Source: Leptospiraceae bacterium (GTDB taxonomy: Bacteria > Spirochaetota > Leptospiria > Turneriellales > Turneriellaceae). From it: a stretch of DNA of 64,000 bases. The stretch covers positions 1 through 64,000 of the forward strand of contig JANWWS010000004.1 of the NCBI GenBank assembly GCA_025055765.1. The letters run 5' to 3'. The notes under the pieces are model-generated. The model was given only the letters and a program-made list of their open reading frames with translations. It did not search any database and had not been told where the DNA came from. The translations under genes and the position numbers were made by a program. Shown here piece by piece: positions 18,216 to 24,842 of the stretch (positions are counted from its first letter, which is position 1; the number at the start of each line of letters is the position of its first letter).

Positions 18216-19250
18216 ATGCCATGGAAGATCCTGACTCGCCTGTTTTTCTTTTTCTCATGTGTTTCATCGACACTACATGCTGCCATCAACTATTACTTCC
18301 CTGCTCTTGCAAGTTCCTTTCTTTCCGGTGCCGAGGAATATGGGAAAACCTACGAAGCTTATAGCCGAGCCTTTTGCGTTCACTATGGAAGAGCCATGGC
18401 CTTTACAAACCATTTGAGCTACCCCGTAGGAAAAGATAGCTTAGGAGTCTTTCCGTCCGTATATGTAGGTTTGGGGATGGGTACTGCTTTTTCGAATACC
18501 TTGGCCATGAAGGCGGCCACCAACGAAAATCTCTCCAGTGGTTTTATCCCTAAAGTCTTACCTACAGCAGGGCTTTCTCTGAATGTGGGTATTGGCCTCA
18601 CAAGAAAATGGCATTTTAGAATAGGATTTCTTCCTATAGTGCAGATGGCTTTGCCCCAACAACTATCCGACATTGACTTGAGCCTTCGGTATGGCAATGC
18701 CAAGGCAAGGCTTAGTTATACATGGCTTGAAAGTGCCTTTTTGCGCCCAGGATTATCTGTAGCAGGTTATTTAGCCTATACGGAAGGCAAAGTTCGCTTT
18801 GCCAAAGACAATATAGCAAGTGTAAACCATAGTTATAACTTTTTTGACGGATTTACCAACCATTCTGCCACCGTAAACTTTCAGTATCAAGTGGCAACAG
18901 AGGCTCTCTGGCGCTACCTGGGAGCTGGAGCTGAAATTCGTATTTGGTATGACCTCTGGCTATTGGTACCATATGTGGGGCTAGGTTTAGGAGCCCAAGG
19001 AGGCCGCTTCAGTACCTCTCTAGACATCCAGGGAGATATTGCCGTATCTATCCCAAGTCTCAATCCCGCACCTCAACTTGACACGGGGTATATGAAAATA
19101 ACAGAAAAAGCTCGGGCAGATAGCATCATAAGCCGCTTTTTCCTGGGTCTAGAAATAAACGCATTTGTTGCCAAAACGGCGGTTGAATTACAGTTTGATA
19201 ACATCCACCGGCTTGCTGGAATAGCGCTGGGCGCCTCTGTCACATTTTAA
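18216..19250 (+). CDS. Putative outer-membrane beta-barrel protein (Leptospira-type surface protein)
   Basis: 344 residues with a signal peptide (cut likely after LHA, before AINYY). The mature sequence has many alternating amphipathic strands: SVYVGLGMGTAF, GLSLNVGIGLTRKWHFRIGF, PYVGLGLGAQGG and a terminal LAGIALGASVTF. The C-terminal aromatic residue is that of an outer-membrane protein recognised by BamA. Its look (a conserved opening helix about an N-terminal Cys/Tyr-rich region, then Gly-rich strands) recalls the Lsa36-type surface proteins of Leptospira and the barrels at 59,373 and 63,578 of this window. No enzymatic motif is visible. The role may be adhesion or a pore; this is inference. 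Confidence 0.65.
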   Translation: MPWKILTRLFFFFSCVSSTLHAAINYYFPALASSFLSGAEEYGKTYEAYSRAFCVHYGRAMAFTNHLSYPVGKDSLGVFPSVYVGLGMGTAFSNTLAMKAATNENLSSGFIPKVLPTAGLSLNVGIGLTRKWHFRIGFLPIVQMALPQQLSDIDLSLRYGNAKARLSYTWLESAFLRPGLSVAGYLAYTEGKVRFAKDNIASVNHSYNFFDGFTNHSATVNFQYQVATEALWRYLGAGAEIRIWYDLWLLVPYVGLGLGAQGGRFSTSLDIQGDIAVSIPSLNPAPQLDTGYMKITEKARADSIISRFFLGLEINAFVAKTAVELQFDNIHRLAGIALGASVTF

Positions 19251-19295: not shown

Positions 19296-22200
19296 ATGAA
19301 ACATCTTATCGCTGCCTTTGTTCGGCGTAGCATTCTTGCTAATCTCATAACCGTTGGTATAATTGCCTGGGGCCTTATATCTCTACTAGGCATACGCCGT
19401 GAAGCCTTTCCCAACATAGATTTTGACATTGTCGCTATCAGCACCTTATACCCTGGAGCATCCCCTCAAGAGGTAGAAAAGCTTGTAACCTATCCTTTAG
19501 AGAAACAAATCAAGGCCGTCGATGGCATTAAAAGAAGCACCTCTTCCTCTCTTGAAGGGAGAAGTGGCATACTTATCACTATCGATCCTGACAAGAAAGA
19601 CAAAAAGCAAGTTGTTGAAGATATCAAGGATGCCGTGGATCGCGCCAAAACAGAGCTTCCAGAGGAAGCCGAAGAGCCTATTGTTACCGAAATTACGAGT
19701 TCTCGTCAACCAATCATTGAACTTGCCCTTTCTAGTGCTCAAGTTTGCACACAAGGCCAAGAGAAAAATTGTCTAAAAGAAAACGAAAAACCATTAGATG
19801 AAAAAGAGCTACGATCTTTAGCTAAGAGCTTGCAAGAAGAATTAGAACTCTTACCAGATGTTGCCTCTGTGAACCGGCGAGGCTTTCGCGACAGGGAAAT
19901 TTTTGTAGAAATCTTTCCCGAGAAAATGGCTTATCTCAATATTTCTGCCGATGACATTGTAAACCAACTACGTTTGCGCAACATCAATATCCCGGGAGGA
20001 ACGATTAACGAGGGACAAAGAGAGTATGCGGTACGAACAGCCAAGGAATTTGAAAATTTAGAGGAAATCGAAAATCTCATTTTAAGATCTAATGACTTTG
20101 GAGGCTACATTCGGCTCAAGGATGTGGCAATGGTACGCTCTGATTTTGAAAAAAGGACAATTATAGAAAAAGCCAATGGGGTTTCTTCCATTGTACTTAC
20201 AGTACTTAAAAAGGAATCAGGTGATGCTATTAGACTCGTTGAGCAAGTCATGAAAACCACAGAGCGCTTTCAAGAAAAAGCTCCCAAATCTTTGCGGATC
20301 GCTTACATGAATGACTTATCTTATTACATTAAGCGAAGACTTAATGTACTTATTGGGAATGTAAGCATAGGCCTTATTCTGGTTCTTGTTTCACTTTTTC
20401 TATTTTTGGGTTGGCGCACCTCAATTATGGTTGCTTTGGGCATTCCCTTTAGTTTTGCTTTTACTTTCATTTTAATGAGCGCCCTTGGTATAACCATTAA
20501 TTTAATTAGTCTCTTTGGCCTCGTTATTGTCTCAGGCATGCTCGTTGACGACGCCATCGTCATTGGTGAGAATATTTATCGCTATTTAGAACAAGGAGAA
20601 GAGCCAGAAAAGGCAGCTATTGAAGGCACGGCCGAAATGGTGGGACCTGTGACAACCGCCGTCACTACTACTATGGCAGCTTTTGCTCCCTTACTTATGG
20701 TAGGAGGCATCATGGGGAAATTCATGTGGAGCCTGCCTACCATGGTTATCTTCGCTCTAACTGGCTCTCTTTTGGAATCTTTTTTTGTGTTACCCTCCCA
20801 CATGAATGATATTTATCGCGGCATTCATATTCACCGCGCCGAGCACGAAAAAAAACTTGAGACAAGGCTTTACCGCGCTTTAGTTCGTTTCTACCGCCCA
20901 GTGCTTAGCTGGGCCTATGACCACCGCTATTTTGTGCTACTCTTGACTTTGTTTGCCTTTATTCTCTCATTAGCTCTCATTCCTGCCACAGGATTCATTT
21001 TATTCCCCAAAAGTGGTATAGAAATTATTTTTCTAAAGGCAGAAGGTCCTCAAGGTATCTCCCTAGATGAAATGGAAAGGCGCATGCGCCCTATCGAAGA
21101 AGTTGTGGCACAACTCCCCAAAGAGGAATTGCAAGACTTCACCACACGAATTGGAATTATACAAGAAAATGTCAACGACCCCTTTACAAAACGCGGAAAG
21201 AATTACTCCACGTTGACTATATACTTAACTCCAGAGAATCAGCGCAAAAGAAAAGCATCAGAAATAATCAGTTACCTCTCAAGCAAATTAAATCCAGATA
21301 CCCCCATTCATCTTTTTGAAAATTTTGAAGGGAAAATTTACGAATTAAACAACAAAAGCGAGCTAAAAATTTATGATGCGGCAACAGGTAAACTAAGGGA
21401 ACAAAAATTAATTAAGGGAGAGCACCCTATTGGCGCAAGTTTAATTAAGGAGCGCAAAAGCATCATAGTATATGACGGAAAAAACACAGTGCGTGAGTTC
21501 TCTTTGCAAAATGCCCTAGAAACAAACTCTTTTTCTCTTTCCCTACGCTCCTACGAATCACCTGTTATTTTTAAGGCTGAACCCAGCGGAAACTTTGGAC
21601 TTCTCTACACTACCCTAGGAAATTTCTACCAAATTCATTTTGAAAAAAAAGAAAAACAAAAAATTGAAGCACCTAGTGGAAAAATCACCTTTTTAAACTT
21701 CTTTCCCTCGCAAAAAGTCTTCATCTTAAGCACGGACAACGGAACCATCGAATGGTATACATATCAAAATAATAAAATTAAGAAAATACATGTTATTAAA
21801 AGTGACCTCGCTCTAGAAAAGAACCATAACCAAGGCTTCTATTTTAGCGAAAGACAAAAAAGACTTTCCTATATCCCCACTTTTTCTTATGATGAGGAGC
21901 GACTCGTTATTCCTTTTTTTGATGGCAGTATTAGAATTATAAATTTAAACCAAAAGCAATTCGAAGACCGCTTTTTTATTAAAGATAAACCAGCTTACTA
22001 TGCCTTTTTTGCTGCACCAGAAAAACTCATAGTAGCTTATCGTGACGAGGCAATTTTATATGACATTCGCCAAAAGAAAATCCTTGCAAGAGAAGAAATC
22101 AACGGTACCATACAAACTCATCTTTTTCCATTTATGGTGGGCACTGCTGGCCTCAAAATAAGGTATGATGATAAAACCATAAAGGTTCTGCAGAAAGCCG

Positions 22201-23384
22201 AGAAGTCCCTTGAAAAAATTGAATATACCCAAGCAGGTGGTGGCCCACCAGTCGGTGCGCCTGTACAACTTGAGATTAAAGGTGATGATTTTACCACCCT
22301 TCGCAAGATAGCTGACCATGCAAAGGAAAAATTGGCCCTTATCGATGGGGTTTATGACATTAGGGACAACTGGGAAGAAGGAAAGGAGGAATTTCATGTT
22401 GAAATTGATGAAAAGAGGGCTATGACTGCCGGTATAACGGTAGCCCAAATAGCCAATTCCCTGCAAACTGCTTTTGAAGGGCGGGTCGCTACGAAAATCC
22501 GTGAGGCTGACGAAGAAATAGAAATTCGAGTTATCTTTCCTGAAGCTATGCGAGAAAGACTCGACAGTCTAGAAAAGGTTAAGGTTAGAAACGCGCTTGG
22601 CAATCTTGTATCAATTACGGAACTCGCCACCTTCTCCAAACATCCCGGTGTAGCCATACTATCTCATGCGGATTTCCGGCGTACCATTTATGTTCGAGCA
22701 AATATTGATGAAAAAAGGAACTCATCAGTTAATGTTAACCGGCAAATACTAAGAGAGTTAAGCGACTATTTAAAAAACTACCCCGGTTACACCGTTAAAG
22801 CAGGCGGGGAATTTGAAGATACCCAAGAATCTATGAAAGATTTAGCTAAGGCCTTTGCTGTTGCTTTGCTGTTTATTTTGGTTATTTTAGTATTGCAATT
22901 TGGTAATTTGCGCCATCCACGGGTGGTTATGGTGGCCATACCTCTTGGGATTATTGGAGTATCACTTACCTTTTTCTTTCATAAGCTTTTGTTTTTTCCC
23001 AACCTCGTCTTTAGCTTTTTAGCCAGCATGGGTATTATTGGCCTTGCTGGTGTCGTGGTAAATGATTCCATAGTCTTAATTGACTTTATTAATAAGTTAC
23101 GCAAAGCCGGGCTTAAAAAGCGAGACGCTGTTATTGCTGCGGGTATCTATCGCCTACGCGCCGTTCTTTTGACAACAATCACCACAGTTTTTGGACTTTT
23201 TCCTACGGCCTATGGTATAGGCGGGGATGATCCCTTTCTGCGACCCATGGCCTTAGCCATGGGCTGGGGACTTGCCTTTGCTACTTTTATTACTTTAATA
23301 GTAGTGCCTATTTATTATTCCATTTGGGAAGACCGAGGTTTTATTTTCCATCGTGCCATCACAGGAAAATATAGGAGGAATTGA
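19296..23384 (+). CDS. RND efflux permease (AcrB-like) with an inserted beta-propeller
   Basis: 1,362 residues, against about 1,030-1,070 for the family. The RND framework is complete. PSPQ-type porter motif ASPQEVEKLVTYPLEKQIK is near 53. In helix 4 the proton-relay pair is in GMLVDDAIVIGENIYRYLE; in helix 10 the counterpart is VVNDSIVLIDFINKL. The second half resumes with GGGPPVGAPVQLEIKGDD at 981. Between about 680 and 975, in the second periplasmic loop (before the PC region), stands an extra block of roughly 295 residues with repeated strand motifs like those of WD40/PQQ propellers. No fusion protein (HlyD/MFP) or TolC gene is in the window. The stop overlaps the following start (TGATG). 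Start: ATG just downstream of a good promoter. Confidence 0.9.
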   Translation: MKHLIAAFVRRSILANLITVGIIAWGLISLLGIRREAFPNIDFDIVAISTLYPGASPQEVEKLVTYPLEKQIKAVDGIKRSTSSSLEGRSGILITIDPDKKDKKQVVEDIKDAVDRAKTELPEEAEEPIVTEITSSRQPIIELALSSAQVCTQGQEKNCLKENEKPLDEKELRSLAKSLQEELELLPDVASVNRRGFRDREIFVEIFPEKMAYLNISADDIVNQLRLRNINIPGGTINEGQREYAVRTAKEFENLEEIENLILRSNDFGGYIRLKDVAMVRSDFEKRTIIEKANGVSSIVLTVLKKESGDAIRLVEQVMKTTERFQEKAPKSLRIAYMNDLSYYIKRRLNVLIGNVSIGLILVLVSLFLFLGWRTSIMVALGIPFSFAFTFILMSALGITINLISLFGLVIVSGMLVDDAIVIGENIYRYLEQGEEPEKAAIEGTAEMVGPVTTAVTTTMAAFAPLLMVGGIMGKFMWSLPTMVIFALTGSLLESFFVLPSHMNDIYRGIHIHRAEHEKKLETRLYRALVRFYRPVLSWAYDHRYFVLLLTLFAFILSLALIPATGFILFPKSGIEIIFLKAEGPQGISLDEMERRMRPIEEVVAQLPKEELQDFTTRIGIIQENVNDPFTKRGKNYSTLTIYLTPENQRKRKASEIISYLSSKLNPDTPIHLFENFEGKIYELNNKSELKIYDAATGKLREQKLIKGEHPIGASLIKERKSIIVYDGKNTVREFSLQNALETNSFSLSLRSYESPVIFKAEPSGNFGLLYTTLGNFYQIHFEKKEKQKIEAPSGKITFLNFFPSQKVFILSTDNGTIEWYTYQNNKIKKIHVIKSDLALEKNHNQGFYFSERQKRLSYIPTFSYDEERLVIPFFDGSIRIINLNQKQFEDRFFIKDKPAYYAFFAAPEKLIVAYRDEAILYDIRQKKILAREEINGTIQTHLFPFMVGTAGLKIRYDDKTIKVLQKAEKSLEKIEYTQAGGGPPVGAPVQLEIKGDDFTTLRKIADHAKEKLALIDGVYDIRDNWEEGKEEFHVEIDEKRAMTAGITVAQIANSLQTAFEGRVATKIREADEEIEIRVIFPEAMRERLDSLEKVKVRNALGNLVSITELATFSKHPGVAILSHADFRRTIYVRANIDEKRNSSVNVNRQILRELSDYLKNYPGYTVKAGGEFEDTQESMKDLAKAFAVALLFILVILVLQFGNLRHPRVVMVAIPLGIIGVSLTFFFHKLLFFPNLVFSFLASMGIIGLAGVVVNDSIVLIDFINKLRKAGLKKRDAVIAAGIYRLRAVLLTTITTVFGLFPTAYGIGGDDPFLRPMALAMGWGLAFATFITLIVVPIYYSIWEDRGFIFHRAITGKYRRN
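21333..22220 (+). other. Beta-propeller insertion within the RND permease
   Basis: Encodes residues of about 680 to 975 of the permease. Seven repeats end in a turn-strand pattern: LKIYDAATGK, VREFSLQNA, YQIHFEKKE, IEWYTYQNN, IRIINLNQK, ILYDIRQKK and IKVLQKAEK. The spacing is 30-50 residues, as expected of propeller blades. On both sides the normal RND sequence is continuous (LNPDTPIHLFENFEG, then GGGPPVG). The block is AT-richer by eye than its surroundings, which could mean later acquisition; I did not compute this. Confidence 0.7.
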
Positions 23385-24136
23385 TGCGCAAAAAGAGAAA
23401 AGAGACAAGTACGCAAACCACAGACATAGTAAAGGCTGCTGAACTTGAATCGGAGTTCATGCTAAAAGCTGAGGCGGGGGAAATCATCCCGGACGAAACA
23501 TATTTGCAAAAACTTCACCTCGATGAGCTATTGGAAATAAAAGATCTCGTCAACCCCGAGCGGGAAGCCGAACTTGCTAAGAGAATCGAGTCTACCATTT
23601 TGCGCTATGAAGAGCCTCGCATTGAAATAGCACGACTGGATGAGCGAATATGGAGTTATTTTTACGAAAAGTATCTCTTGCGTTTTTTGTTTCTTATCTG
23701 GGGAGGCCTTGTCTTTCTTCTCGTGCCCAACAAAACAGAACCTGAAGAGGGTATGCCTATGGCTTTAAAGGTTTTTCTTTTAGGTGCTCTCGTACTTATA
23801 ATAGCATTTCGCCTCTCTCTTGCTATCTTTGAATCCCAGAAGAAGGCAAGTATTCCCGCCAGTCCTTTACGGAGAAAATTAGGTATTGCAGTTTTCATGC
23901 AAGACGGCAATCCCCCAGGTTTTTTCCGTGCTTTGTTAAGGGGTTTCTTTAAATCCTTTCCCTTAATGTTCCTCACGGTTCTCACTATGGAACTTTCTCC
24001 AAATAACAGGGGTATTCACGATAAACTCTTTGGAACCTATGTTTTACGAATAAACAACCCAAATGTTAGTCGGGCCGAAATTCGTGAATTTATAAAAACA
24101 AAATATGCAAGCAAAAGCAAGACTATGTTGTTATAA
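23384..24136 (+). CDS. RDD-family membrane protein
   Basis: 250 residues. The ATG at 23384 shares its A with the TGA of the RND gene and has AGGAGG nearby, so translation is coupled. A charged N-terminal cytoplasmic tail (about 1-85, helical, EAELAKRIESTILRYEEPRI) precedes three or four membrane helices (about 95-115, 128-150, and 195-215). RDD features: SPLRRKLGIAVFMQDGNPPG, then FFRALLRGFFKSFPLMFL and SPNNRGIHDKLFGTYVL. The D-K-x-x-x-T end is usual. RDD proteins are poorly understood; some act as ion transporters. Coupling to the RND pump suggests an auxiliary role, not proven. Confidence 0.8.
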   Translation: MRKKRKETSTQTTDIVKAAELESEFMLKAEAGEIIPDETYLQKLHLDELLEIKDLVNPEREAELAKRIESTILRYEEPRIEIARLDERIWSYFYEKYLLRFLFLIWGGLVFLLVPNKTEPEEGMPMALKVFLLGALVLIIAFRLSLAIFESQKKASIPASPLRRKLGIAVFMQDGNPPGFFRALLRGFFKSFPLMFLTVLTMELSPNNRGIHDKLFGTYVLRINNPNVSRAEIREFIKTKYASKSKTMLL

Positions 24137-24155: not shown

Positions 24156-24842
24156 ATGGGTTTTCGCCTCTTACCCGAAAATCATCTTATCGCTCAGCTA
24201 CCCTTGGAGTACCACCAAATTATTGTAAGAACCCATATTAGGCGCTTTCATTTATTTTACGAAAAATACTTTGCCCGAGAGGAAAGTAAAGCCCTAGTCA
24301 CCTTTTTTTTTGAAAAGGTTTATAATCTAGAGGGCAAAACCAGAAGAGATGAAATTGCCTCAAGAACCTACCGGCGATTCCGCTCCCTTCTTTCCGAGCG
24401 CTCTCGAGATCGCTTGGAAAAGCTCTTGTACTTAAATGAGCTTACCGATTATTTAGATAAAAAACTAGCATGGGGCCTTTATCAAAATTCCGCTTGGGCG
24501 GCTCAAGCGATAGCCCAGGGTTATGCGGATGACCTTGTTTACCATGAGCTCTTAAGGCAGGAAAATTCCTTTGAGGAACGAGAACAACAACTGCAACTTG
24601 TCTTATGGAACCTTCAGTCTTTCTTTGAACTTAGTAAGCACCCTCTTGCAGAGGTTGTTATGAGACCCGCTTACATGGCAGCGGTTATGATTGGTGCAAA
24701 AGAGATCTACTACATGTTAGAAGAAGGCTATTTTGCAAGCAAACCTGTTCCCCGTGAGCTTTTTTACGAATTTGTAGAATTTGTTAAAGAGAAGGAAAAA
24801 CAATTCTTTTATTTGGTCTACGGGAAATACCCGCAGGTATAG
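24156..24842 (+). CDS. Conserved hypothetical protein (FFxExxY-type motif)
   Basis: 228 residues, soluble and helical, without signal or membrane segment. It carries ALVTFFFEKVYNLEGKTRRD near residue 47, followed by a long basic/acidic helical stretch and AWGLYQNSAWAAQAIAQGY. The FFxExxY spacing recalls a spirochaete family that I remember being named after an FFLEELY motif; this is a memory, not a search result. No catalytic motif is visible. It starts 19 bases after the RDD gene, so it may share the RND transcript. The 3' end overlaps the convergent PAP2 gene by 25 bases. Confidence 0.55.
   Translation: MGFRLLPENHLIAQLPLEYHQIIVRTHIRRFHLFYEKYFAREESKALVTFFFEKVYNLEGKTRRDEIASRTYRRFRSLLSERSRDRLEKLLYLNELTDYLDKKLAWGLYQNSAWAAQAIAQGYADDLVYHELLRQENSFEEREQQLQLVLWNLQSFFELSKHPLAEVVMRPAYMAAVMIGAKEIYYMLEEGYFASKPVPRELFYEFVEFVKEKEKQFFYLVYGKYPQV

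Follow-up and report, generated by a model that had tools for sequence, protein, structure and literature searches.

A permease of the RND family in Turneriellaceae with a seven-bladed propeller inserted in its PC1 subdomain

Few membrane machines have been studied as thoroughly as the resistance-nodulation-division (RND) pumps, and a tripartite layout in which the adaptor is a protein of its own is commonly taken to be the rule in Gram-negative bacteria. The present analysis concerns an RND permease interrupted by a beta-propeller, encoded on the first 64,000 nucleotides of contig JANWWS010000004.1 (G000:C11:1-64000, the whole stretch being hereafter called the window), from a Leptospiraceae bacterium of the GTDB family Turneriellaceae whose genome (G000) measures 2.51 Mb and is 99.4% complete. 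In mycobacteria, the RND transporters MmpL4 and MmpL5 likewise carry a large extra domain in their second periplasmic domain (PD2). They do not adopt the tripartite arrangement of Gram-negative type, and deletion of their coiled-coil insert abolished function (PMC12501195). This insert is a hairpin of alpha-helices for which a tube has been proposed, whereas the insert of the window permease is predicted to be all-beta and is unlikely to be a conduit; the MmpL5 coiled coil is its nearest parallel in kind. A seven-bladed propeller is joined to an RND transporter in the MmpL3 complex as well, in which MSMEG_5308 (Rv1057) stabilises MmpL3 (PMC6593404). According to the literature description on which this likeness is based, that propeller is a separate protein and MmpL3 belongs to a different RND family, whereas the window propeller lies within the transporter chain. 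Among spirochaetes, the Borrelia system BesA-BesB-BesC also departs from standard adaptor-TolC docking; it has a membrane fusion protein (MFP), which lacks its alpha-hairpin, and no propeller is described there (PMC3807786). No RND pump with a propeller insert was found in the searched open-access literature, in line with an earlier note, drawn from the letters of this DNA, whose author knew of none; within that literature, the permease is a previously undescribed pump variant.

The permease and its three parts are arranged as follows.

19296..23384, + strand, RND permease with inserted propeller, 1362 aa (open reading frame; ACR_tran E=6.6e-193)
19296..21308, + strand, N-terminal RND part with transmembrane helices TM1-TM7, PN1/PN2/DN and the first half of PC1 (ACR_tran 2-645)
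21309..22211, + strand, inserted seven-bladed beta-propeller, aa 672-972 (AlphaFold2, Foldseek, profile against PDB, self-repeat)
22212..23381, + strand, C-terminal RND part with the last PC1 strand, PC2/DC and TM8-TM12 (ACR_tran 659-1019)

The open reading frame agrees with the 1,362 residues given by the earlier note for the permease at 19,296, and the insert limits proposed there (21333-22220) fall within 8 codons of the best bounds. Its description of intact RND sequence on both sides of the insert is borne out by ACR_tran (Pfam, 1021 positions), of which positions 2-645 match window 19308-21293 and positions 659-1019 match 22221-23324, with about 300 aa between them. Solved structures to which the permease shows a match include MexK, MdtB and CusA. 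The Asp pair of TM4 (D418/D419, equivalent to AcrB D407/D408) is present, and the equivalents of AcrB D407, D408, R971, T978 and F617 (the Phe of the G-loop) are invariant in the alignment, so that by these conserved residues the pump core looks active. These residues and the ACR_tran cover are shared with the HAE-type RND permeases (AcrB, MdtB, MexK; NF033617), whereas the 300-aa propeller in PC1, the lack of an adaptor gene in the operon and an Asn at the position of AcrB K940, found in the permease and in 14 out of 14 relatives of the same alignment, are not. The NF033617 score of 554.6 lies below the cut-off of 1250. An artefact of frameshift or gene fusion was discarded because a single frame of 1352-1379 aa is found in the window gene and in six sequence-complete orthologues; the eighth insert-bearing copy is cut by a contig edge and does not count as sequence-complete. 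Among propeller-bearing orthologues, the C-terminal part is 64-84% identical. The permease is a full-length RND protein interrupted by one domain, and probably a proton-driven exporter of the AcrB/MdtB/MexK kind. Elsewhere in the chain, a 15-residue insertion after AcrB residue 147 contains Cys151 and Cys159 (window 19746-19772), a pair also present in the G004 and G003 orthologues, which suggests a periplasmic disulfide.

The insert alone, modelled with AlphaFold2 from an eight-row alignment, folds into seven four-stranded blades with a predicted local distance difference test (pLDDT) of 87.4 and a predicted TM-score (pTM) of 0.83. This all-beta model counts 27 strands of at least 3 residues and one two-residue bridge, distributed as follows (DSSP strands in insert numbering).

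21312..21410, + strand, blade 1, insert residues 2-34 (strands 2-6, 9-13, 18-23, 29-34)
21426..21536, + strand, blade 2, insert residues 40-76 (strands 40-46, 51-56, 60-65, 71-76)
21561..21665, + strand, blade 3, insert residues 85-119 (strands 85-90, 96-101, 106-110, 115-119)
21684..21800, + strand, blade 4, insert residues 126-164 (strands 126-132, 137-142, 146-153, 156-164)
21801..21881, + strand, low-confidence loop between blades 4 and 5, insert residues 165-191 (pLDDT <50 at 167-182)
21885..21977, + strand, blade 5, insert residues 193-223, with the two-residue bridge as first strand (strands 198-202, 207-212, 217-223)
21999..22097, + strand, blade 6, insert residues 231-263 (strands 231-236, 239-243, 247-252, 257-263)
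22110..22193, + strand, blade 7, insert residues 268-295 (strands 268-272, 275-278, 283-286, 291-295)

The b-c hairpins of the seven blades begin at insert residues 14, 56, 101, 142, 204, 244 and 278. Their spacing is 34-45 aa, except for 62 aa across the low-confidence loop, a segment of variable sequence present in all orthologues; the seven repeats read in the earlier note are thus recovered, regular but for this one gap. When the insert profile was aligned to itself with a shift of one blade (47-298 on 5-263), the score reached 42.4 over 226 columns, far above the best of 60 column-shuffled controls (19.5), and the repeat is not due to chance. From the strand order, the first and the last blade are each formed by one end of the insert, so that both ends lie side by side, as insertion into another domain requires.

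Comparison with known structures leads to the same fold. With Foldseek against the PDB, the best matches are BamB and WD40 proteins of seven or eight blades, with TM-scores of 0.6-0.7 (best TMq 0.70). These values are only moderate, and finer details of the model, blade tilt for example, call for caution. In the PDB, a profile of the eight orthologous inserts finds the WD40 protein SIF2 at E=4e-9 and the propeller of a sensor kinase at E=1.5e-7, besides several other WD40 and PQQ proteins. Both the structure prediction and the WD40/PQQ profile search proposed in the earlier note therefore came out in favour of a propeller. With the single sequence, Pfam matches are weak (WDR55, E=7e-5, 22.4 bits for a cut-off of 200; ANAPC4_WD40, E=9e-4, 19.9 bits for a cut-off of 22.9), no curated WD40 or PQQ family of Pfam exceeds its cut-off on the insert, and NCBIfam gave no match. 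Propellers of the BamB/WD40/PQQ type share the fold and its four-stranded blades, BamB being a periplasmic scaffold, whereas they are only 9-14% identical to the insert and BamB is eight-bladed. Invariant columns of the insert, most of which lie in turns, hold Y, N, L, T and G, and no conserved ligand or metal motif is found among them. When the whole second periplasmic loop was modelled, the propeller was mostly predicted at pLDDT 84-93 per 10-residue block, and Foldseek returned propellers only. The RND flanks of that model are poor (mean pLDDT 72), and it was therefore not used for the relative orientation of the propeller.

Alignment with E. coli AcrB and 22 insert-free relatives puts the insert between AcrB residues ~654 and ~664, in PC1, after helix 2 and before strand 4, the last strand of the subdomain, where it takes the place of a short connector. 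The fold and this placement are regarded as nearly certain. By its position in the aligned chain, the propeller is assigned to the periplasm, and the trimer would have three propellers, one per protomer, each on the outside of PC1 next to the drug-entry cleft. The strand following the insert carries AcrB F664 and F666, whose AdeB equivalents bind drug at the cleft entrance (PMC8545137). In AcrAB each protomer takes two adaptor copies, one of which attaches mainly to PC1 (PMC6975555). At the same connector, other members of the class Leptospirae have about 25-42 extra residues and G040 about 115, which indicates that the connector tolerates insertions. A loop common to known RND pumps, which the earlier note had named as the finding that would speak against a propeller, is discarded since AcrB and the closest insert-free relatives have nothing alike there. 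In the permeases of loci L093 (G040) and L094 (G032), about 112-115 extra residues stand at a separate point, on the PN2 side, following AcrB residue 317.

The distribution of the insert was followed in 48 genomes of the class, 18 from the order of the window (Turneriellales) and 30 others. It is found at the same site in eight of the 18, which represent three of the four families of the order, and in none of the 30. Searching 393 Spirochaetota genomes with the insert profile gave RND matches in those eight only, the weak matches elsewhere being non-RND, and a scan of contigs that included other phyla revealed propeller-length RND members only in records matching genomes of the order already found. 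Long RND frames of G040 and G032 were aligned and contain no propeller; for those of G018 and G005, themselves unaligned, the insert profile has no match in either genome. The whole pump is absent from the Turneriella-like genus g6 and from family f3, where the best RND match is 28-31% identical. In a tree built without the insert columns, and without the partial carrier G013, the seven full-length carriers are monophyletic with a support of 1.00. A single insertion, in an ancestor that belonged to one order of Leptospirae, probably Turneriellales, is supported. Conservation among relatives, which the earlier note had proposed to follow across the Leptospirales, is confined to one order and patchy within it. 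Between genera, inserts are 15-39% identical and the pump flanks 52-84%. In the close species pair G002/G006, the ratio of nonsynonymous to synonymous substitution rates (dN/dS) comes to 0.13 in the insert, with 0.09 and 0.05 in its two flanks. Maintenance of the insert under purifying selection is supported, and low identity together with low dN/dS describes a domain constrained in its fold and free in its sequence.

Three genes flank the permease in the window.

18216-19250, 344-aa protein upstream of the permease, signal-peptide-like start (no significant Pfam match)
23381..24136, + strand, 251-aa membrane protein of the RDD family, its gene overlapping the stop codon of the permease (PF06271 E=1.4e-8)
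24156-24842, 228-aa flanking protein (no significant Pfam match)

The RDD gene is present in exactly eight of the 48 class genomes, which are all the propeller carriers (8/8 vs 0/40), always directly downstream of the permease; the window protein is 46% identical to the G004 copy. As the RDD gene is restricted to carriers and the pump is missing from g6 and f3, this looks like joint loss or gain of both. To our knowledge, little is known about the function of RDD proteins, one of which, from Halobacillus andaensis, has reportedly been characterised. The 344-aa product is perhaps an outer membrane protein, to judge from its start; neither it nor the 228-aa protein has a counterpart in the other orthologous loci. 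The gene order is TetR - TolC - RND - RDD in G015, G017, G002 and G006 and TetR - RND - RDD in G003, with no TolC between, whereas the contigs of G004 and G013 start at or within the permease and leave the upstream side unseen. The absence of nearby adaptor and TolC genes claimed by the earlier note holds for the window neighbourhood. For TolC it does not extend to four of the orthologous operons, where a TolC-type (OEP) gene stands directly upstream, nor to the rest of the G000 contig, which carries a 52% identical TolC copy 183 kb from the permease (C11:206065-207555).

No MFP gene adjoins the permease in the window or in the seven orthologous loci, two of them with the unseen upstream side just mentioned. 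In G000 as a whole, no RND_mfp match above cut-off and no HlyD_D23 match was obtained, which leaves room for an unrecognised adaptor. The single clear adaptor-like gene of this genome (C1:52.5-53.8 kb) is located between a TolC-like gene and an apparent ABC transporter, an arrangement that looks like a type I secretion system. One other ACR_tran permease above the family cut-off, of ordinary type, is encoded in G000 (L099, C11:215604-218921), and no MFP gene adjoins it either. At loci L048, L049, L050, L052 and L053 (Bacteriovoracales, Neomarinimicrobiota), a gene called TolC-like from its size and position is directly followed by an RND permease without MFP gene; adaptor-less TolC/RND gene pairs may thus be wider than the insert-bearing clade.

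Taken as a whole, the proposal is that of an RND exporter whose once-inserted propeller serves as a docking and stabilising platform that partly replaces the adaptor, with a probability of roughly 0.42. Its mechanistic core, a built-in platform for protein docking and stabilisation on PC1, is tentatively the likeliest mechanism, in view of the adaptor footprint on PC1, the failure to detect any RND-type adaptor in G000, the co-occurrence with RDD and the MmpL3 precedent. As part of the transporter chain, the propeller would take over some of the work done in trans by periplasmic adaptors or by propeller subunits of their own. The pump would need no conventional MFP and would couple to the class-wide TolC, directly or via a partner not yet recognised, and also to the RDD protein. 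Several observations weigh against this proposal. Evolution is much faster in the insert than in the pump, and an invariant patch on its surface is not apparent, so that one fixed partner is not indicated. A TolC relative occurs in 45 of the 48 class genomes, with or without propeller, and TolC as a propeller-specific partner is therefore unsupported. In five of the eight carriers, an MFP above cut-off is encoded elsewhere in the genome and could serve as an adaptor in trans. Insert-free relatives (other Spirochaetes, Bacteriovoracales, Neomarinimicrobiota) have no neighbouring adaptor gene either; the propeller is thus not strictly required for the adaptor-less gene arrangement, and the lack of a linked adaptor is probably older than the propeller. 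Moreover, the placement of the propellers on the trimer was deduced from alignment rather than from a model of the trimer.

Given its contact with the entrance strand and its rapid evolution, the insert has as its main rival explanation substrate capture or gating at the mouth of the PC1/PC2 cleft, the propeller binding a periplasmic ligand (lipid, glycan, peptide or metal) and passing it to the entrance site. The cleft-entrance residues come immediately after the insert, and a quickly diverging domain on a conserved pump would suit lineage-specific substrates, whereas the missing ligand or metal motif and the strict co-occurrence with RDD, which points at least partly to protein partners, make this explanation unlikely, though the least so of the rivals. 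Binding to the envelope (peptidoglycan, a lipoprotein, the BAM or lipid machinery), which would keep the pump at sites of envelope building with an envelope lipid rather than a drug as substrate, is harder to credit. The envelope propeller BamB is among the Foldseek matches and the RND lipid exporter MmpL3 has a propeller partner (PMC6593404), but BamB is one match among many WD40 proteins, at 9-12% identity, and TetR control in the relatives is more typical of inducible efflux. The least probable of the three is a passenger, neutral or of structural value alone, which has no function of its own and is tolerated because the connector accepts insertions. The extra residues found at this site in other Leptospirae (about 25-42, and about 115 in one relative) and the rank of the insert as least conserved part of the protein fit such a passenger. 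Decay would be the expected fate of a passenger of 300 aa, whereas the insert is full-length in every sequence-complete orthologue of two families (the third family being represented by a contig-edge fragment) and combines its dN/dS of 0.13 with conservation of the fold. In a stronger form of the docking-platform proposal, rather unlikely in our view, the propeller would be a genetically fused adaptor, three of them on the trimer holding TolC and the RDD subunit in an envelope-spanning exporter that needs no MFP.

If this stronger form is true, it would be a second solution beside the MmpL5 coiled-coil tube. A propeller in the adaptor-binding subdomain, in a genome without detectable RND-type adaptor, suggests that one small lineage of spirochaete relatives assembles the RND machine differently and offers a natural test of the need for the adaptor. 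With the RDD protein, a new and consistent partner is named. The association of a propeller with an RND transporter, known in trans from MmpL3, appears to have arisen here in cis.

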